DNA of 64,000 bases from Lacipirellulaceae bacterium (lineage in GTDB: Bacteria > Planctomycetota > Planctomycetia > Pirellulales > Lacipirellulaceae), in NCBI GenBank assembly GCA_040218535.1, contig JAVJRG010000010.1:310001-374000 (forward strand). Reading direction: 5' to 3'. The notes beneath the pieces are model-generated. The model did not search any database, was not told the DNA's origin, and saw nothing but the letters and a program-made list of their open reading frames with translations. How positions within the stretch are numbered: position 1 is the stretch's first letter; every line of letters begins with the position of its first letter. A program made the position numbers and the translations under genes. Of this stretch, positions 25,521 through 39,184 are shown in pieces.

Positions 25521-27125
25521 CTAAGCTCGTTCGGCGAAGAACTTCCGCAGCGTCTCTTCTTTCGGCGGCGACGTAATCAGCGAAACGCCCACGAGGGCTG
25601 CTGCGGAGGCTAGGAAGATGCCTGCCACTGGCATCACTTCATAGCCAAACAGATCGATCGCGTAGCTGCGGTTCTTTCCATAGCCTGACTCGCGGAACAG
25701 GTAAAACCAAGCCGCGATGGTGGCGATAACGCAAGCGTACGCCCCCGGTTTGGTTAGCCCACGCCAGTAGACAGCCGCCAGGACGAGGGGAAACAGGCTT
25801 GCAAATCCGCTGAAGCACCACACGCCCAGCGTAAAGACGCTTTTCGCTTCGTAGAGGCTGAACCAGTAGGTCAATGCAACAATGGCGATGATAAACCCGC
25901 GAGTGAGCATCACTTCCTGACGGTCGGTGAAGCGGCCTTTGCCTCCATAGTGGGTCGCAATGTCGTTAGTGAACATGGTGCCAATGCAAAGAAACTGACT
26001 GTCGAGCGAAGACATGATCGCCGCTAAAATCCCAGCGGTTAATAATCCGCCAAGCAGAGGCGAGGTGAGGCTCTTCACCAGTACCGTGAGCACCGCATTG
26101 GGATTCTTGGGGATCGGCACATTGGCAGGAATCAAGTCCGTGGTCGCCCAGACACCAATCAGCACGCAAGGCACCCAAACGATCATGATGAACAGCGGAT
26201 GCGCGACGACTGAAAGGCGGAAACTCTTGGCGCTCTTGGCAGTCAACCAATGCTGGAATAAGTGCGGGAACATCCCTACAGAGAGCGGAATCAAGAGATA
26301 GCTAAAGAACTTGGTCTTCGACATTTCCATCCGCGTGGCCTTCTCGGGCGGAATCGCTTCGCCCAGCTTGCGGAGGTTCGCCAGCAGCGACTCCTCGCCA
26401 CCGAGCCGATTAGCAATCACACAAAACGTGACTACTCCAAGCACCATAAACACGATCGTTTGAAACGCATTCGCCCAGGCAGTGCCGCGCATCCCGCCGA
26501 AAAACACATAACTAAGCACGACACAGCAGACGACTAGAGAGCCGAGGTACTTCGGCACGCCAAAACTGGTTGCCGGAGAATCGGTCTTGAAAGCCTCAAC
26601 ATCAGGAAAAGCACCGGCGGTCATTGTCTGAATCACCGTTCCACTGCCCATGACGCCGATCAGCAAATAAGGAATCACCAAGGAAACAAGGATCGGAAAT
26701 AGGAGCAATCCAATTAAGTCGCTATCCAGTCGGTCACGGAAAAACTGAATTTGAGTCGCGTAACCATATCTCTTCCCAAACGACCAGAGCCGAATGCCGA
26801 CCACGAAGAAGCAAAGCGAATGGATAATGCCGCTGGAGGAAGCCAACATTCCGTACACGCCGACGCCTTCCTTAAACGCTTCGCCCGTCGAACCAAGTAG
26901 AGCGAAGGCGGTCATCGTTGTGCCGAAGATGCTCATCAGCAGCAAGAACGGCCCAATCGAGTGGCTTGCCAACTGGTAGTCACTCTTCGTGCCCGTGAAC
27001 ATGCGACTGGCAAAGAAGCCAAGGCCCACAAGCAGGCAGAGATAACCGAGAATGATCCAGAATTGTGTCAGCCCTGAGGGCGGAGTCTTGGCAGCTTCTG
27101 CCGCTATCAACAAAGGCAAGTTCAT
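25521..27125 (-). CDS. sodium:solute symporter (SSS family)
   Basis: A 534-residue membrane protein with about 13 helices. Family features: FGTTMTAFALLGSTGEAFKEGVGVYG near the N-terminus, the FFGGMRGTAWANAFQTIVFM stretch with the SSS-type G-G-x-x-x-x-W-x-D/A-x-x-Q, the LTAGILAAIMSSLDSQFL conserved SSS signature, and WCFSGFASLFPLVLAAVYWRG. It imports an organic solute with sodium. Substrate cannot be read; the overlapping DUF3311 partner is typical of pantothenate/organic-acid-type members of the family. The DUF3311 gene overlaps its start by ATGA. Confidence 0.92.
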   Translation of the reverse strand: MNLPLLIAAEAAKTPPSGLTQFWIILGYLCLLVGLGFFASRMFTGTKSDYQLASHSIGPFLLLMSIFGTTMTAFALLGSTGEAFKEGVGVYGMLASSSGIIHSLCFFVVGIRLWSFGKRYGYATQIQFFRDRLDSDLIGLLLFPILVSLVIPYLLIGVMGSGTVIQTMTAGAFPDVEAFKTDSPATSFGVPKYLGSLVVCCVVLSYVFFGGMRGTAWANAFQTIVFMVLGVVTFCVIANRLGGEESLLANLRKLGEAIPPEKATRMEMSKTKFFSYLLIPLSVGMFPHLFQHWLTAKSAKSFRLSVVAHPLFIMIVWVPCVLIGVWATTDLIPANVPIPKNPNAVLTVLVKSLTSPLLGGLLTAGILAAIMSSLDSQFLCIGTMFTNDIATHYGGKGRFTDRQEVMLTRGFIIAIVALTYWFSLYEAKSVFTLGVWCFSGFASLFPLVLAAVYWRGLTKPGAYACVIATIAAWFYLFRESGYGKNRSYAIDLFGYEVMPVAGIFLASAAALVGVSLITSPPKEETLRKFFAERA

Positions 27126-27346
27126 GAGGGGCTCCCCCCCTCGTTACCGTTCTCTTCATCGAGCTGCTTTGGCCAACAAAAAAGTACCACGAGCAGCCAA
27201 GTCGTCGCAGCCGCGACCGAGATGCAGGCGTGGTAGAAGAGCCCCTTTGGGATAAAACCAAACACAAGGGTGCCGTCCTCCCAGTTCCAATCGTCTTGAT
27301 GCAGAACAATCAGCAGGAGGACTAATGGCCAGATGAAACGAAGCAT
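27122..27346 (-). CDS. DUF3311 small membrane protein, partner of the symporter
   Basis: A 74-residue protein with two helices (FIWPLVLLLIVLHQDDWNW; FYHACISVAAATTWLLVVLF) and a Phe/Trp/Pro pattern matching DUF3311, including the final F-C-W-P before a polar tail. DUF3311 genes usually sit beside SSS symporters as small accessory subunits. The overlap ATGA with the symporter gene supports coupling. Own activity unknown. Confidence 0.85.
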   Translation of the reverse strand: MLRFIWPLVLLLIVLHQDDWNWEDGTLVFGFIPKGLFYHACISVAAATTWLLVVLFCWPKQLDEENGNEGGSPS

Positions 27347-27425: not shown

Positions 27426-28685
27426 TTAAGCGCGTTGTGCTGCCAGCCAGGGCTCGAGGTCGTCGAAGATCTTGCCTTCACGCCCATCAAAGACTCGACC
27501 GATTAATAGATCAACCAGCTCTTCCTGATGTTGAGGATGCTCAGCGATGAACTTCCCGACGCGAAATTCAGGTGAGTAGAAGGCGTAGACCAACTTGCGA
27601 ATCAATGCGGTCTGCTGATTGAATTGCCCAACCCAACGCCCCAGAGCTTCCCCTGATATATCGCCCGTTTGCAATGCTTCGATGACACAATCGGCGGCTT
27701 GTTCGGCAGATTTCAACGCAAAGTAAACGCCTGAGGAGTACACAGGATCAATAAACCCCCAGGCATCTCCTACCAAGACCCAGCCATCGCCCGCAGACTG
27801 CTCTGTGGTGTAAGAAAATTCCTTCGCGGCAACCAGTTCGTCGGTAGGCTCAGCATCGCGTAGCCGTTCTACGACGCCGGGGCACTTCGCCAATTCCTCC
27901 TGCCATGTTTTCTCGAAATCGCCACGTCCTTTGAGAAGGTACTCTCGATCACCGACCACTCCAACGCTGACGATGTCGTTGGCCTGCGGAATGTACCAGA
28001 ACCAAGCAGTCTGGTCTTCATTCTGCAAGATGATTGTTTTCACTCCGCCACCCGACTCATCCCGCTCGCCGCCGCGATAGTGCTTCCAGAGCGATGCCTT
28101 CTTCAGCTTTGGATTGATCGTTCGACCGCCGATACGAGAACCGAGAATTGCCTGCTGTCCGGTGGCATCGACAACTACCTTGGCTTTGACCTCTTGGGAC
28201 TTCAAGCTGCCGTCCAGATCCTTAAACTGAAGCTTGGCACCGACGGCACGCTTATTGCCCGAGGAGGTTTCTTCGAGCAGAACTTCTACGACTCGGACCT
28301 CTTGCTGGACTTCGGCACCGTTCTCCGCGGCGTTCTCAAAAAGCATTTGGTCGAATTCAGCACGATCGACATGCCAGGTTTCGCTTGATTCGTGATCATC
28401 ATGTGATCGAAAGAAGAAGGGGGCCGACTCTTTGCCGGTGTTATTGACGAACTGGACGCCCACTTTCTTGGCGTAGCCTGAACGCTTGAGCTTTTCCAGC
28501 ATTCCTAACCGTTCAAAGGTCCAATACGTCTCCGGCATGAGAGATTCGCCCACGTGGGGTCGTGGAAATTTCTCTCGCTCCACGAGGAGTGTTTTGAACC
28601 CAGCTTGGGCAATCAAGGTTGCGGCAGTTGAACCAGCCGGCCCACCACCCATGACAAGGCAGTCGTATTGGGAGTCGAAACTCAC
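27426..28685 (-). CDS. FAD-dependent oxidoreductase of the halogenase/geranylgeranyl-reductase group
   Basis: A 419-residue flavoprotein. FAD-binding GGGPAGST is at 13-20 and PHVGESLMP at 43-51, typical of flavin-dependent halogenases and relatives. K73-K74 in SGYAKKVG sit where phenol/pyrrole halogenases hold their catalytic lysine. W228-F-W-Y-I-P233 matches the WxWxIP halogenase signature. GDAWGFIDPVYSSGVYFAL is the FAD-binding tail. The start is a GTG overlapping the chorismate-lyase-like stop as GTGA, so the two are co-translated. Possible reactions are halogenation, hydroxylation or saturation of a terpenoid or aromatic product; the sequence alone cannot choose. An ordinary FAD hydroxylase with a chance motif is the main alternative. 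Confidence 0.8.
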   Translation of the reverse strand: MSFDSQYDCLVMGGGPAGSTAATLIAQAGFKTLLVEREKFPRPHVGESLMPETYWTFERLGMLEKLKRSGYAKKVGVQFVNNTGKESAPFFFRSHDDHESSETWHVDRAEFDQMLFENAAENGAEVQQEVRVVEVLLEETSSGNKRAVGAKLQFKDLDGSLKSQEVKAKVVVDATGQQAILGSRIGGRTINPKLKKASLWKHYRGGERDESGGGVKTIILQNEDQTAWFWYIPQANDIVSVGVVGDREYLLKGRGDFEKTWQEELAKCPGVVERLRDAEPTDELVAAKEFSYTTEQSAGDGWVLVGDAWGFIDPVYSSGVYFALKSAEQAADCVIEALQTGDISGEALGRWVGQFNQQTALIRKLVYAFYSPEFRVGKFIAEHPQHQEELVDLLIGRVFDGREGKIFDDLEPWLAAQRA

Positions 28686-31157: not shown

Positions 31158-33176
31158 CTAGACAGCGGCAACTAATGCGGATGTTGCTGCCTTGTCCAAC
31201 AACTGCCGAGCTCGACGTAGTGCTTGCGTTGCGAATATCTGCGGGTACAACTCTTCATGGTACCAAAGCTTGGCGAAATAGAAACCGATGGTCGCAGGTT
31301 CCGTGTGCCGTCCTGACTCCACTGCATCGCACAGCCACTGGACGCCCTGCTGCACACTCTGAGCGATTTTCGCGTCCTGCTCAGCCCAAGGCAGCAAAGC
31401 CTCGACTGCTAAAGCGGTTTCCTCGACGCTACAAACTGCTTGGCCATCTTCCTTAGGGTGCGACTTGGTAACACGCTTCTGCTCGACATCCGCTACGCCC
31501 CATCCGCCACAGGCGTGCTGGACCTTCGCAAGCCAATTGACGCCTTTGAGGTATGCCGCCTTCAAGTCCACGCCCTCGCCGGCGAAACCGCAAGCGTCGA
31601 GCTTGAGCGATTCTAGGGCTATGAGTGCTTTAGAGGTGCCGTAGACGGGGTTCGATTCGTCGGGCTGCAGTTGGTTGCCAAACCACAAAGGGTTCCAACG
31701 ACCGTCTTCCTGCTGCTGATTGATCAGAAAAGCCGTTGCCGACTTCAAAGCAGCCTCGACTCGCTCAATCCTAACGCTGGTTTGAAGCAACGGTTGCCAG
31801 CTAACGAAAGCTCGAACCGCGTGAGCAGTAATATCCGTGCTGCTACGGTCGAAAGGCAACTTACCCCAACCGCGGCAGAAGGTAGGCATCCCGCCGTCGG
31901 TATTCTGCAGGTCAAGTAACCAGTCGACGCCCGCGGACGCTGCTTTTTGTATCTCTGCCCGACGAACTTCGGGGTGCTTCTGATGAAAGGCCGCCAATGC
32001 CAACAAGGCAGCCGAAGTGTCATCCGCATCGGGCACACCGCCAGACAAATCTGTCCAGGCCCAGCCGCCGGGGGCTGCGCCCGTGTAGGGATGCCTCTCT
32101 TTCAGTTGGCAATCGAACAACCAATCGAGCGTGGCCAACTCCGCGTCGCTGGGAGCCGCGTCGTGAGAGTCGTGGTAAAGATCGCCGTCGTCGACATTGG
32201 TGTCGAACTCCCAGCCGAGCGCACTAATCGCTTGGGACGTGTTCCATGTGGCCAGATTGGTATCGATCGGCCAACTGCCATCGCTGCGGATCGAAGAGAG
32301 CAGAAACTCGACTCCCATCCGGACCACTTCGGAATCTGCCTGCCCAATGCTGGCGAGACTCATCACCACGAAGCTAGTCAATGGGGTCGCCTCCAAGAAG
32401 CCGCCGCTACGAGGCTGCATTTTCTCTAAGACTTCCAGCGTTTTCTGCTTCGTGCGGTTACGTATCCATCGAGCAAGAGGATTCCATGAAGGTCGGTGAT
32501 GATGCCGGGCTTGGCCAATTGCTACCAAGGCAGGAATCGCATAGCTCACCACCGGCAAGCCGAGTTTGTGGTACCAGCTTTGGGGCAGAGCGGCAAACTC
32601 GAAGGGCAATTGCGGGACTTTCTTCCAGGGAATCAGTCCGGCTAACGCACAGTTGGTAAGGATCGGCACGGCAAACGTCTTATCGCGACCGTAACGCTCG
32701 CGCAAGCCACGAATGCCTCCCTGCTTCTTGATGTACTGTTCGGCCCGTTCCATTAAGTCCGAATATTTCGCAGGAACACCAGTCAACTGGAACGCTGCCT
32801 CGACAAGCATCGTGGCGGAAATATTCGAGGGTCCCTCGTCCGTATCGCCCCAGCCACCATCCTCGTTCTGGTGCTTCGCCAGATAACTAAGACTTTGCGT
32901 GAGTAGTTCGCTCAACTCGTTCCGCATCATCACGCCAGTTAGCCAGCCCTGATCGGTCTTCCCTTCCAGGCGCTGGTCGTCATCTACGTGCTGTTCTGCG
33001 AGCGCAAGCGCACTGACAGCCGTTGCCGTAGCCAACGGTGAACTCGAGAGGCGGCCTTCGAACACACCGCGTGAATTGCGAGCAGCCAGCAGCGTTTGTC
33101 TGGCCGTTTGAAGGGCGGCGTCAATCCGCTGAGCATCGGAGGATGCGGCGGAGAAGCCAACCGTGGTAGAACTCAT
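31158..33176 (-). CDS. class II terpene cyclase of the squalene-hopene cyclase family
   Basis: A 672-residue protein of usual SHC length. The proton-donor motif is VPDADDTSAALL, with D-x-D-D at about 383-386 (in SHC the middle Asp starts the cyclisation). QW-type repeats are seen at NEDGGWG, SDGSWPIDTN, NTDGGMPTF, EDGRWNPLWFG and ACGGWG. GFYFAKLWYHEELYP near the C-terminus is also SHC-like. It should cyclise a linear polyprenyl chain. The ATG is preferred to a TTG 9 bases upstream; neither has an ideal Shine-Dalgarno site. The same-strand downstream gene makes the polyprenyl chain, so its substrate may be that product rather than squalene; no squalene synthase gene is in the window. Confidence 0.88.
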   Translation of the reverse strand: MSSTTVGFSAASSDAQRIDAALQTARQTLLAARNSRGVFEGRLSSSPLATATAVSALALAEQHVDDDQRLEGKTDQGWLTGVMMRNELSELLTQSLSYLAKHQNEDGGWGDTDEGPSNISATMLVEAAFQLTGVPAKYSDLMERAEQYIKKQGGIRGLRERYGRDKTFAVPILTNCALAGLIPWKKVPQLPFEFAALPQSWYHKLGLPVVSYAIPALVAIGQARHHHRPSWNPLARWIRNRTKQKTLEVLEKMQPRSGGFLEATPLTSFVVMSLASIGQADSEVVRMGVEFLLSSIRSDGSWPIDTNLATWNTSQAISALGWEFDTNVDDGDLYHDSHDAAPSDAELATLDWLFDCQLKERHPYTGAAPGGWAWTDLSGGVPDADDTSAALLALAAFHQKHPEVRRAEIQKAASAGVDWLLDLQNTDGGMPTFCRGWGKLPFDRSSTDITAHAVRAFVSWQPLLQTSVRIERVEAALKSATAFLINQQQEDGRWNPLWFGNQLQPDESNPVYGTSKALIALESLKLDACGFAGEGVDLKAAYLKGVNWLAKVQHACGGWGVADVEQKRVTKSHPKEDGQAVCSVEETALAVEALLPWAEQDAKIAQSVQQGVQWLCDAVESGRHTEPATIGFYFAKLWYHEELYPQIFATQALRRARQLLDKAATSALVAAV

Positions 33177-33319
33177 ACGAGCCAAAAGGCTCCGGGGTGA
33201 GGTGAACTGGGCTGAATTCGTTCAATTCAGTCGAGGTGCAATGATATTCACCGATCACAGGATTGTCGAGCGACGGATTCGCGCACGTGACGCAAGTCGC
33301 TTAATCACAAAGGTTTACA

Positions 33320-34462: not shown

Positions 34463-37400
34463 TTAAGCTCCGGGCAGTCCAACCAACCCACCAATCATTG
34501 GCATTTCAGTCGTATTCTCAGGAGCAAACTCTCCGGCGATGCGAAGACCAAACTGATCGCTCAGCTGCTGATTTGTTAGCCCTACATACTGAGTCGGTAT
34601 ATGTGGGAGTGCCTCTGGGAAAGGAACCGAACTCGGACGTTGCTGGCCGAAGTAAGCCTTTTGGTTGTCGAAGGATCCGTAGTTTAGCGTCACGCTATTG
34701 CTTGAGAACAAGTATGAGATTGAGTCATGATTCGGAACAGTATCGAACCTCAAACGAACCTCGGTTTGTTCTTTTTGCCCCAGGATTTCCGGAGCAATCT
34801 CACCGAATTCCGGATTACCTTGCACAATCACTTCTCGACCGGATCTGCTACTTGGGCCGATTACGATCGCATCGATCGCCTCAAAATAGCCCCCGTCGAC
34901 GATGGAAGTTCCACGTCGAGCCACATCAATTCCTCGGTAGTAACCGGTGATGTGGAGATCTTCATAGGTGATTCCCTGGGTAACGATGTTCTCGCTCACC
35001 CCGTTGCCGTAGTAATCTTCCGTCACTTCTCTTGCAATGTGGAGATTCCTCAACACGACCTGTTGCGAGTAAGGAAGATGCACTCCCGTCTCATTGTTCC
35101 AGAATTGAGAATCTTGGATGACGCTCTGGAAGTCATGAGTCGCGTTACGCAAGTGGTAGCGAACCGTCAGGCCTCGGGAAGATGAGTAGCCTTGGTTGCC
35201 CCGGAACTCAAGCACGGGTACATGATCGGTAATGATCGAGTCGGCCTCTCCCGCGATGTAGGGATATTCGAGCCCCTCGGCCGGAAATTCAGCCGGGTCA
35301 CCCGGGAAACCGAATCCTTCCGAATAGTAGAAAAAGGCACTTCCGTGGGCATCGGCCGCGACGTTATCAACGACACGTATCGCTGACCCTTGGAACCAGA
35401 AACCATCGCCACCGTGTCCAAAGTCTTGCTCTCTTCTTCTTGAGTCGGCTCGTTCATCCGTTCCATCAATATTAATCGCGATGTTTCCAACAAAGCTGCC
35501 AATCTCATCGCCAACTTCAGTTGTGAATCCGGCTCCGGTGATGTCATAAGCGACGTTGTCAGTGAAATCGACGTAGCTACTGTGATTGACGTAGCCCCAG
35601 CCGACGTTGTCTGTCACGACACTTCCGTGGACCTGACTGGCAGGCGAATCAGCCAGCACCCCGTTTCGGTGGAAATGTATCGCATAACGGGCACGATTAT
35701 TGGTGCCAGTCCCAGCTTCCAGGTTCCAACTCGCGTCAACGACCGCATCGTTCACTGTGACGAGTTTGTCCGTTCGACCGAGCTTGTCAAACGTTGCGTA
35801 GCTGACTTTCACATCACGATTGTGCATGAACATCGTATGGCCACGGCGGTCCGCAGCCTCTGCTTCCGATGTCAATACGATGTTGCGAGTAAGGTTCGCC
35901 ACATGCACGCCGCCAGTGGTGGTCGGCAAGGCATGGTCATAGTCGAGAGGTTCCACAAAGACCGTATTGCCAACGATCAAGAGGATGGTCCGTTGCTCGC
36001 TCTGCGACTCTTCATTGACACTTCCTGCGATGACGATCTGGTCTCCAGCTTTCCAACCGACGGGCACACTTTGCAGCGTTATCGAAGTCGCTCCAGCCGT
36101 GAGTGCCCCAGTTGCTCGAACGTGTGCTGTTCTTTCCGCGCCGTGAATTTCAACGGCACCGTGAGTGATCAAGCCCCGACTTATGCCGAAAGGATCCCAA
36201 TTGCGATCGATTGTACCGTTATCAGTAAACACAAGCTTTGCTGTCACGTGCTCCTGCACAGGCTCAGCGGCAGTTCCCATCTGGAAGCGCCCCATTTCTG
36301 AAACGACAATCGTATCGGCGCGGAGTTCGCTATTCCCATCCGCTGAGAAACTCAGGGTTCCATCAACACGTATCGTCGTTACCTCTGCAGAGATCGCCCG
36401 ATCGACATTGAGTTCTATGCCAACGGGAACCAAAATACGCGCGCCGTCACCCGGCATCTGCTCATCTTTCCAGGTGCTTGGATCCGACCAATCGCCACTT
36501 TCAGCGACGGTATGGGTGACTTGGTCATACCGAACGAGTTCGAAGAGCGCGAGATGCTCAAGTCGCTTGCTTGGCTCGGAGGCATGTGGGATCACTGTAT
36601 GCAGGACGTCCTCGTCATTAAGATCTCCCAAGTTGTCGAGAGAATCGATGAGGGCGAATCCCTCGACCACCGGCGGATGGTCGATGATCGTACCGCCGTG
36701 GCTGTGACCGCCGTCATGAGTATGGCTATGACTTGAGTGATCGTGATTAGGCGAGTCATGTGGAATCGAAGATCCGAACGGATCGTAGGTAGCATGGATT
36801 CCCGGAAGAAGAATCCAGTCGCTTTCTGTGCCGCCGAAAACTTGATCCACGACGTGATCGTCGACCACTGAAACGTTCATTTGCAACGCCAGTGTTTCGG
36901 AATCCTGGATATCGTTGATCCGGCGGGCGAACGAGGCAGTACTGCCCCAGATCGCATGGAGATTACTTAAAGCGGAGTGATTGTGCGTTATTTCCGTCCC
37001 AACTAGCAGGTCTTCGCCTGCCCCGCCGGTTAATCGATCGATCTGGCCTCCGCCGATCAAGACATCCTGACCCGCGCTCCCTAGTAACTCGTCTTCTCCT
37101 TGCCCGCCTGACATTAGGTCGTTGCCCAGGTCACCACTGAGTAGGTCGGCCCCCTCGTCTCCAAGAATTAAGTCGTCGCCATCTTCGCCAAAGAGTAGGT
37201 CATCACCAGTCCCGCCAAACAGTGAGTCGTTTCCTTCAGAGCCGTAGAGCGCATCATTTCCTTCCTGCCCCGAGAGACTGTCGTTTCCCACTCCAGCAGT
37301 TAGGAAATCATTTCCCGATCCACCATCCAACTGGTCATCTTGATTTCCTCCATTCAAGTAGTCGTCACCTGTTCCGCCAAACAATTGATCGGCACCGTCT

Positions 37401-39184
37401 TCTCCACGTAGCTGATCATTGCCGTCATCTCCGATCAACAAGTCATCACCATGTTCGCCATAGATTTTGTCATCACCTGGTCCCCCGTGAAGAGCATCGT
37501 TTCCTTCTGCCCCATACAGAACATCCGATCCGTCTTGACCATTTAAGTTGTCGTTCCCCACTCCAGCAGTTAGGAAATCATCTCCTAAACCACCATCCAA
37601 CTCGTCGTCCTGGTCGCCGCCACTCAAGTAGTCGTCTCCAGTTCCGCCAAATAATCGATCAGCACCATCTTCACCATACAGCTGATCGTTGCCCTCATTA
37701 CCCAGCAAAGTGTCTGCACCCTCTTCGCCGCGTAGATTATCGTCATGATCTCCGCCTGCCAGCGTATCGTTACCAAAGCCACCGAACAGGCTGTCGACGT
37801 CGGCCCCACCATAAAGGGAATCATCTCCCTGGCCGCCAAGAAGAAAGTCGCTACCGGTTCCCCCGCTGAGATAGTCGCTACCAGTACCGCCGTTGATGTA
37901 GTCATCTCCTGCCGCGCCAAGCAGAATGTCCGAATCCTCATCTCCGTAGAGTCGGTCCGCTCCTGCGTCTGCCAACAAAAGGTCATTGCCGGCAGAGCCC
38001 CGCAAAAGGTCGTCCCCGAGTCCCCCGTGAATTTGGTCCGAGCCGTCCCCTCCCTCTAAGGTATCATTCCCAGAACCGCCTTCGAGGATGTCGTTTCCAT
38101 CGTTGCCGTAGGCGTTATCAGCTCCCTCACCTCCTATGAGATGGTCATCCCCTAAGCCCCCTTGAAGATAGTCATTACCATCTTCTCCAGTTAGACGATC
38201 GTCGTCCTGATCACCGTAGAGTCTGTCATCACCTGTGCCTCCTGACAATTCGTCGTCTCCATTGCCACCGTTGAGCCTATCGTTGTTTTCACCTCCAACA
38301 AGACGATCGTTACCGTCATGTCCATTCAGGAGATCGTCTCCCTCCCCGCCCTCTAGCTGGTCATTCCCCGACCCGCCCCCTAGCAAGTCTTCTCCCGAAC
38401 CGCCAATCAGGTAATCGTCTTCCGTACCGCCGTTGAGAACATCGTTTCCTGCGTCACCAATTAAAATGTCTGCTCCTTGAGCACCGTCAAGTTGGTCGTT
38501 CCCTGCGTGACCTTCGATGATGTCATGCCCCGTATCTCCCCAGAGCGCGTCGTCCCCGTCGCCTCCCTCCAGTCGATCGTTGCCTGCATGTCCGTAGATG
38601 CGATCGTTCCCCGCTTGGCCAGAGATCCAATCGTCTCCGACGTTCCCCGAGAGGAAGTCATCTCCCGCTTCACCAAAAAGAATGTCGTTGCCCACACCGC
38701 CACGAAGCACATCATCTCCTCCGCCCCCTAGCAAAATGTCGTCCCCTTCGTCTCCGTTGAGGACGTCAACTCCTGTGCTGCTCTGCAAATAATCGTTTCC
38801 GGCATTGCCAAATGCGAGCACGTTTAGGCTAGTGAGATTAGTGAACGAGTCGTCGCCACCGTTGCCGTAAAAAACAATCGAGCTAACCGATGTCGTATCG
38901 AAGCTTACTTCCGAAAGCTGCCCATCGTGGTGGAAGCTTACATCGATGATTCCTGGAATCGATTCAGAAACAACCGCTGTATCGGCGACATCCGAGCCAA
39001 CGAAAGTCAGCTTCGACGTGTTCGAATTGAGATAGACTTGGCTAACACTCAGCAGACGACGCTCTTCGAGAGATTCGATACGGAGTCCGCGGTTTATGAC
39101 TGTGCCGCGACAATGGTCCCTCTTCGACCGATTGCGGTAGAGGTGATCTAAGAACTGCTGCCAGCGTGCTGAATAGAGTGCCAT
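34463..39184 (-). CDS. giant secreted RTX-repeat / G8 / beta-helix protein
   Basis: A 1573-residue protein. The N-terminus carries RIESLEERRLLSVSQVYLN (LE-x-R-x-L-L-S at 39-46), the planctomycete secreted-protein motif. Residues about 125-725 are several dozen GG-x-G-x-D-x-L RTX nonapeptides, a calcium-bound beta-roll. A His-rich stretch is at about 805-835 (DHSSHSHTHDGGHSHGG). A G8 domain is at about 890-1050 (SGDWSDPSTWKDEQMPGDG, VHVAN further on) and a right-handed beta-helix at about 1130-1460. This order of G8 and beta-helix resembles CEMIP/TMEM2-like polysaccharide-binding or hyaluronan-depolymerising proteins. RTX tails often mark type I secretion, but here the repeats are N-terminal. 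Probably binds or acts on extracellular polysaccharide. Confidence 0.82.
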   Translation of the reverse strand: MALYSARWQQFLDHLYRNRSKRDHCRGTVINRGLRIESLEERRLLSVSQVYLNSNTSKLTFVGSDVADTAVVSESIPGIIDVSFHHDGQLSEVSFDTTSVSSIVFYGNGGDDSFTNLTSLNVLAFGNAGNDYLQSSTGVDVLNGDEGDDILLGGGGDDVLRGGVGNDILFGEAGDDFLSGNVGDDWISGQAGNDRIYGHAGNDRLEGGDGDDALWGDTGHDIIEGHAGNDQLDGAQGADILIGDAGNDVLNGGTEDDYLIGGSGEDLLGGGSGNDQLEGGEGDDLLNGHDGNDRLVGGENNDRLNGGNGDDELSGGTGDDRLYGDQDDDRLTGEDGNDYLQGGLGDDHLIGGEGADNAYGNDGNDILEGGSGNDTLEGGDGSDQIHGGLGDDLLRGSAGNDLLLADAGADRLYGDEDSDILLGAAGDDYINGGTGSDYLSGGTGSDFLLGGQGDDSLYGGADVDSLFGGFGNDTLAGGDHDDNLRGEEGADTLLGNEGNDQLYGEDGADRLFGGTGDDYLSGGDQDDELDGGLGDDFLTAGVGNDNLNGQDGSDVLYGAEGNDALHGGPGDDKIYGEHGDDLLIGDDGNDQLRGEDGADQLFGGTGDDYLNGGNQDDQLDGGSGNDFLTAGVGNDSLSGQEGNDALYGSEGNDSLFGGTGDDLLFGEDGDDLILGDEGADLLSGDLGNDLMSGGQGEDELLGSAGQDVLIGGGQIDRLTGGAGEDLLVGTEITHNHSALSNLHAIWGSTASFARRINDIQDSETLALQMNVSVVDDHVVDQVFGGTESDWILLPGIHATYDPFGSSIPHDSPNHDHSSHSHTHDGGHSHGGTIIDHPPVVEGFALIDSLDNLGDLNDEDVLHTVIPHASEPSKRLEHLALFELVRYDQVTHTVAESGDWSDPSTWKDEQMPGDGARILVPVGIELNVDRAISAEVTTIRVDGTLSFSADGNSELRADTIVVSEMGRFQMGTAAEPVQEHVTAKLVFTDNGTIDRNWDPFGISRGLITHGAVEIHGAERTAHVRATGALTAGATSITLQSVPVGWKAGDQIVIAGSVNEESQSEQRTILLIVGNTVFVEPLDYDHALPTTTGGVHVANLTRNIVLTSEAEAADRRGHTMFMHNRDVKVSYATFDKLGRTDKLVTVNDAVVDASWNLEAGTGTNNRARYAIHFHRNGVLADSPASQVHGSVVTDNVGWGYVNHSSYVDFTDNVAYDITGAGFTTEVGDEIGSFVGNIAINIDGTDERADSRRREQDFGHGGDGFWFQGSAIRVVDNVAADAHGSAFFYYSEGFGFPGDPAEFPAEGLEYPYIAGEADSIITDHVPVLEFRGNQGYSSSRGLTVRYHLRNATHDFQSVIQDSQFWNNETGVHLPYSQQVVLRNLHIAREVTEDYYGNGVSENIVTQGITYEDLHITGYYRGIDVARRGTSIVDGGYFEAIDAIVIGPSSRSGREVIVQGNPEFGEIAPEILGQKEQTEVRLRFDTVPNHDSISYLFSSNSVTLNYGSFDNQKAYFGQQRPSSVPFPEALPHIPTQYVGLTNQQLSDQFGLRIAGEFAPENTTEMPMIGGLVGLPGA
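37010..38810 (-). repeat. DNA repeats encoding the RTX beta-roll
   Basis: About 1.8 kb of imperfect repeats with a 27-base period (three nine-residue codon sets), coding for GG-x-G-x-D-x-L units. Sub-blocks are near duplicates: the segments around 37195-37430 and 37495-37710 read almost the same in protein, so recent duplication inside the array is likely. Confidence 0.8.

Follow-up and report, generated by a model that had tools for sequence, protein, structure and literature searches.

Closest described systems

Flavin-dependent halogenases are normally scattered genes of specialised metabolism. Their chemistry, i.e., reduced flavin, C4a-hydroperoxide, HOX, passage through a tunnel, a lysine and electrophilic attack, has been reviewed (PMC10696468, PMC8407142). 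A tunnel motif, FxxPxxSxG, is described in PMC8407142, and residues K74, D325 and F328 are essential in RadH (PMC10377541).

The FAD protein considered here is encoded in a window of 64,000 nucleotides from a Lacipirellulaceae genome (the whole stretch that was analysed). The small carrier-bound pyrrole or aryl halogenases PltA, Mpy16, ChlB4 and Bmp2 are comparable to it in size (chains of 409-455 aa) and in fold (Z about 47), and the first three share with it GESxxP, KKxG, WxWxIP and FxDPxxSSG. However, their identity to the FAD protein is about 30%, and PltA, Mpy16 and ChlB4 form a separate clade. FasV (8zop) is the best match by profile as well as by fold (Z 47.8, 31% identity), but the tree groups it with CndH, CmlS and RadH and not with the clade of the FAD protein. 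The catalytic lysine aligns in RadH, CndH and CmlS, as do the tunnel residues of RadH; these proteins differ by their longer chains (512-591 aa) and their separate clade. The Cytophaga hutchinsonii protein 3nix has both signature motifs (Z 45.4) and no assigned function, which was counted against a halogenase; its position in the tree is unsure because of long branches. At 21% identity and Z 35, geranylgeranyl reductase 3oz2 has the FAD-binding fold in common with the FAD protein, but neither the lysine nor the first Trp.

As regards gene context, the halogenase gene arcA of a xanthomonadin-type cluster adjoins that of chorismatase arcB, with an AMP ligase and a glycosyltransferase (PMC3949708). 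Like the present gene, ArcA-type halogenase genes of Proteobacteria adjoin the gene of a chorismate-to-hydroxybenzoate enzyme. They differ by their polyketide aryl-polyene pathway and by a XanB2-type chorismatase instead of the UbiC-type enzyme found here. Two proteobacterial relatives (L053, L055) adjoin FabA/ApeI-like, acyltransferase, ACP and ligase genes, an aryl-polyene-like context.

Halogenated phenolics of planctomycetes are documented, among them 3,5-dibromo-p-anisic acid and the 4-hydroxybenzoate ester alichondrichlorin, whose genes PMC12078418 describes as unknown. The literature search found no paper on a halogenase in Pirellulales, none on FasV and none linking planctomycete halogenated phenolics to the operon described below; in the literature found, no halogenated product was tied to the FAD gene or to the operon genes.

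Features of the locus

The features are collected in Table 1. The chorismate-lyase-like (UbiC-like) gene is located upstream of the FAD gene and overlaps it by 4 bases (GTGA). PPS and SHC are located farther upstream, DUF3311 and the SSF symporter downstream.

Table 1. Positions of the features in the window, with the basis of each assignment
Feature	Position	Strand	Basis
SSF-family sodium:solute symporter	25521..27125	(-)	PF00474
DUF3311 small protein	27122..27346	(-)	PF11755
Flavin-dependent-halogenase-like protein (FAD protein), 419 aa, GTG start	27426..28685	(-)	ORF; PF04820; AlphaFold model
FIDPVYSSG (residues 311-319), FxxPxxSxG tunnel motif	27729..27755	(-)	alignment
WFWYIP (residues 228-233), WxWxIP	27987..28004	(-)	sequence and alignment
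K74, candidate catalytic lysine	28464..28466	(-)	invariance and alignment with halogenases
GESLMP (residues 46-51)	28533..28550	(-)	sequence and alignment
GGGPAG (residues 13-18), FAD-binding GxGxxG	28632..28649	(-)	sequence and alignment
Chorismate-lyase/DUF98-like (UbiC-like) protein, 174 aa	28682..29206	(-)	predicted fold, family profile and residues
DUF116-polyprenyl synthetase fusion (PPS), 609 aa	29240..31069	(-)	PF00348, PF01976
Squalene/hopene-cyclase-like protein (SHC), 675 aa, with PDADDT	31158..33185	(-)	PF13243, PF13249

Motifs and their conservation

The WFWYIP motif reported in the first-pass annotation is indeed present in the 419-aa translation. GESLMP is present as well, although its first residue had been missed by one (47-51 instead of 46-51). 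The segment SGYAKKVG, also pointed out there, places lysines at 73 and 74. Of these, K74 is aligned with the halogenase lysine, whereas residue 73 is variable among relatives (K, R, H, E or Q). K74 is therefore the candidate catalytic lysine of the FAD protein and K73 was rejected.

The Adhaeretor mobilis homologue has 79% identity to the FAD protein. Conservation was expressed on an alignment of 45 relatives with a mean column identity of 54%. Invariant residues are (i) K74, W228, W230, I232 and P233; (ii) G46-E47-S48, P51, F311, D313, P314, S317 and G319; (iii) G13, G15 and G18 of GGGPAG, which follows the GxGxxG pattern. In view of this mean identity, the conservation of the motifs is far beyond chance. 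K74 is unchanged in planctomycetes, Verrucomicrobiota, Latescibacterota and Proteobacteria. The stretch F311-G319 conforms to the FxxPxxSxG tunnel motif, and D313 and Y316 correspond to D325 and F328 of RadH.

Family assignment: profiles, fold and tree

Pfam model PF04820 (Trp_halogenase), which also matches in genomes without known halogenases, matches the FAD protein at 85.7 bits for a gathering cut-off of 21. The NCBIfam models of CmlS halogenase (176.6 bits) and of GG-red-SF (TIGR02032; 141.1 bits, E 6e-41, cut-off 158.8) both remain below their cut-offs; the FAD protein is thus not an equivalog of CmlS or of the reductase superfamily. The QhpG and LodB models match in the same NCBIfam search.

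The leading matches of the PDB profile search are FasV, PltA, Mpy16, ChlB4, CndH, 3nix, CmlS, Bmp2 and RadH. The top ten chains (E 1e-74 to 1e-98) are all halogenases except 3nix; reductase 3oz2 comes at E 1.5e-26 and hydroxylase QhpG (7ctq) at 1e-12. The comparison of the AlphaFold model (pLDDT 93) with known structures gives a similar ranking: Z 47-48 for FasV, Bmp2, Mpy16, ChlB4 and PltA, then 3nix, RadH (44), CndH (43) and CmlS (37), with phenol hydroxylases at 34-35, i.e., close to 3oz2.

An alignment against PltA and geranylgeranyl reductases had been proposed as a check of the halogenase assignment. K74 falls on the lysine of all reference halogenases in the motif table (K74 of RadH, K76 of CndH, the second K of KKFG in PltA, and CmlS), and 3oz2 has no such lysine. 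The outcome first named as refuting, an alignment with both lysines away from the halogenase tunnel, did not occur. The halogenase motif set (lysine plus first Trp) is missing in 3oz2 as in five planctomycete reductase-superfamily proteins (L121, L123, L129, L130 and L137).

In a maximum-likelihood tree of 54 proteins, the FAD protein belongs to its own 30-row clade (support 96/99), made of Planctomycetota, Verrucomicrobiota and Latescibacterota. The other groups are PltA/Mpy16/ChlB4, FasV/CndH/CmlS/RadH and the proteobacterial sequences. Reductases are located outside the group of the FAD protein, so that the proposed grouping with reductases, which would have spoken against a halogenase, is not observed; support for the separating branch is 93/44, and there are several long end branches. 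In this tree the clade is nested neither in the PltA clade, nor in the CndH/RadH/FasV clade, nor in that of any other characterised halogenase, and we know of no characterised member within it. The separation from proven halogenases weakens a claim of proven function and leaves membership in the family untouched.

Membership of the FAD protein in the flavin-dependent halogenase family, as first annotated, is supported by the lysine, WxWxIP, FxxPxxSxG, the fold and the tree, its activity being presumed. The «pyrrole type» also proposed does not hold, since the protein lies outside the PltA/Mpy16/ChlB4 clade.

Elsewhere in the source genome (G000:C5:1471230-1474068; L059-L062, L135), two longer FAD proteins are encoded in tandem, with open frames of 583 and 562 aa. 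They are distant relatives of the halogenase family, and L135 keeps the lysine and WVWLIP. They are possible further halogenases of this organism.

The overlapping chorismate-lyase-like gene

The UbiC-like protein alone has no match in Pfam or PDB sequence searches. The profile of its family finds the DUF98 structure 2nwi at E 3e-4, and Pfam PF01947 matches 3 of 33 family members (best E 0.026). Its model (pLDDT 93) reaches Z 17.2 with 2nwi and 11.6 with chorismate lyase UbiC (1g81); GntR effector domains, which have the same fold, match at Z 12-13. The hhalign alignment pairs R72 with R76 and G88 with G90 of E. coli UbiC; E170 was matched to E155 by eye, since the latter lies shortly beyond the point where the alignment stops. 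We take these UbiC residues, in this numbering, to be the key ones. Across the family alignment G88 and E170 never vary, and R72 is kept in at least 90%. The suggestion that the neighbour could supply a phenolic acid thus gains from both the chorismate-lyase/DUF98 fold and the kept residues.

Operon organization and co-inheritance

In other planctomycete classes the gene order is: EhpF-like ligase, aldehyde dehydrogenase (ALDH), iron ADH, PQQ propeller, HemN-like protein, UbiC-like protein, FAD enzyme, followed by a glycosyltransferase, a thioesterase or a symporter. The operon is divided into two parts in many Pirellulales. In the source genome the ligase-to-HemN part is on a different contig (C8, about 315-325 kb; G000:C8; L110:3485-12813) and contains the EhpF-like ligase, ALDH, iron ADH, PQQ propeller, HemN-like radical-SAM protein, a GcvH-like protein and a 4Fe-4S protein. 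We noticed no ketosynthase in planctomycete operons, and saw no carrier protein in the operon of the window and no terpene genes in the operons of other planctomycete classes.

Against EhpF, the ligase scores E 8e-41. EhpF activates an aromatic acid, a phenazine carboxylic acid, by adenylation, after which this acid is reduced to the aldehyde. An aryl-acid route is thus more likely than a fatty-acid route, and the assignment of ligase and ALDH as LuxE/LuxC fatty-acid reductases was dropped. Two neighbours (f10, f12) considered as ketosynthases are actually the PQQ propeller and the HemN-like radical-SAM protein.

The FAD enzyme is found in 82 of 97 Pirellulales genomes, nearly always as a single copy, the UbiC-like protein in 84 and the HemN-like protein in 82. 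One family (f17, 10 genomes) has none of the three; this natural loss would be useful for a comparison of metabolomes. Of the 97 genomes, 63 have PPS and 57 SHC. Each of the two is present in 6 of the 10 genomes of that family and absent from many genomes with the FAD enzyme; 26 genomes have this enzyme and no PPS match.

In the phylum sample (199 genomes), the FAD clade was defined by a profile E ≤ 1e-112, a threshold chosen after the tree. So defined, it occurs in 45 genomes; the ALDH-like protein (45) and the HemN-like protein (44) occur in the same ones (45/45 and 44/45), i.e., these two members of the C8 set are co-inherited with the FAD gene. The UbiC-like protein occurs in 31 genomes, all within these 45; it was not found in the other 14, which was counted against a halogenase pathway. 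Fisher p for co-occurrence ranges from 1e-25 to 1e-45 over the 199 genomes, shared ancestry being ignored. This co-distribution is that of a pathway inherited together, with terpene genes outside.

Single in-frame stops are present in a few relatives (e.g., FDH, i.e., the FAD enzyme gene, of G011, UBIC of G041, G027 and G060, and L079); they are possibly assembly errors or decaying copies.

Proposed function and alternatives

What was observed directly comprises the motifs of the family, the fold, the position within the family, the overlap of the genes, a conserved operon and co-inheritance; from these we infer halogenation itself, as well as halide, substrate, order of the steps and product. 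On this basis the FAD protein is best explained as a flavin-dependent halogenase from an undescribed clade centred on planctomycetes, acting in a conserved pathway of 4-hydroxybenzoate type; we put the probability of this reading slightly below 60%. Reduced flavin would probably be supplied by a separate reductase. FADH2 and O2 would give the C4a-hydroperoxide, which would react with halide to form HOX. The latter would reach K74 through the tunnel that runs behind the WxWxIP wall, and K74 would deliver X+ to an electron-rich phenol. The likeliest substrate would be 4-hydroxybenzoate from the overlapping chorismate-lyase-like gene; alternatively, it may be a derivative obtained after adenylation (EhpF-like ligase) and reduction (ALDH-like enzyme, iron ADH).

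The near-universal and mostly single-copy presence in the order is odd for a halogenase and counts against this reading. A core-gene distribution is more in keeping with a constitutive pathway than with a halogenated specialised metabolite, which favours a flavin monooxygenase that would hydroxylate (or oxidatively decarboxylate) the same phenolic intermediate while retaining the halogenase architecture. QhpG is such a case, i.e., a hydroxylase in which the WxW residues W181 and W183 line the same channel (PMC7876137), and the matches of the QhpG and LodB models point the same way. However, K74 is invariant across four groups of bacteria, QhpG itself is far more distant in the profile search, and phenol hydroxylases rank below halogenases by fold. 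A hydroxylase is thus the less probable solution, though the main rival.

The first-pass annotation had also envisaged a halogenated terpenoid. Indeed, SHC, PPS, UBIC and FDH form a same-strand block in many Pirellulales, and the product of the SHC-like cyclase and the polyprenyl synthase, a cyclised terpenoid or meroterpenoid, might be the substrate. But terpene genes are distributed independently of the FAD gene, as they persist in the family devoid of it and PPS is missing beside it elsewhere, and the operon of other classes is free of them. This terpenoid substrate is accordingly quite unlikely, whereas the phenolic half of the same proposal is favoured by the chorismate-lyase-like neighbour. 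Given their independent distribution, PPS and SHC are probably one terpenoid module separate from the FAD gene. The least probable reading by far, to which the GG-red-SF match could point, is an enzyme akin to geranylgeranyl reductases that would saturate what the polyprenyl synthase, encoded two genes upstream, makes. This reading was rejected: the score is below cut-off, reductases lack the lysine and first Trp and branch off outside the family, motifs and fold contradict it, and the prenyl genes do not share the inheritance of the FAD enzyme.

Significance of the flavin-dependent halogenase reading

The near-universal, mostly single-copy presence in the order and the strict co-inheritance with a small, compact group of enzymes for aryl acids point to a basic, unnamed planctomycete pathway. 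Co-inheritance with phenol-processing genes suggests that an undescribed halogenation pathway is widespread in planctomycetes. A broader proposal is tentative and rather doubtful: much of Planctomycetia, with scattered other planctomycete classes, Verrucomicrobiota and Latescibacterota, would have one undescribed pathway that leads from chorismate to 4-hydroxybenzoate, adenylates and reduces the aryl acid, and includes a step by the HemN-like radical-SAM protein as well as halogenation by the flavoenzyme, with halogenated phenolics as a normal product. On this hypothesis, the operon may hold the genes so far lacking for 3,5-dibromo-p-anisic acid or alichondrichlorin.

If the FAD protein halogenates, (i) organohalogens would have a widespread natural source in abundant aquatic bacteria and (ii) a knock-out would directly test the gene origin of the known planctomycete halogenated phenolics. 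Otherwise, the clade would be a good natural case of a halogenase architecture turned to hydroxylation.

Other genes of the window

The DUF116-polyprenyl synthetase fusion is kept in many Pirellulales. In Lacipirellulaceae the FAD gene is followed by DUF3311 and the SSF symporter. Latescibacterota/Gemmatimonadota contigs (L036-L043) likewise have an SSF symporter after the FAD enzyme; it may be a transporter of the substrate or of halide. Upstream of the block, at 34463-39184, the window encodes a protein of 1573 aa with many glycine/aspartate-rich GGxGxD-like repeats.
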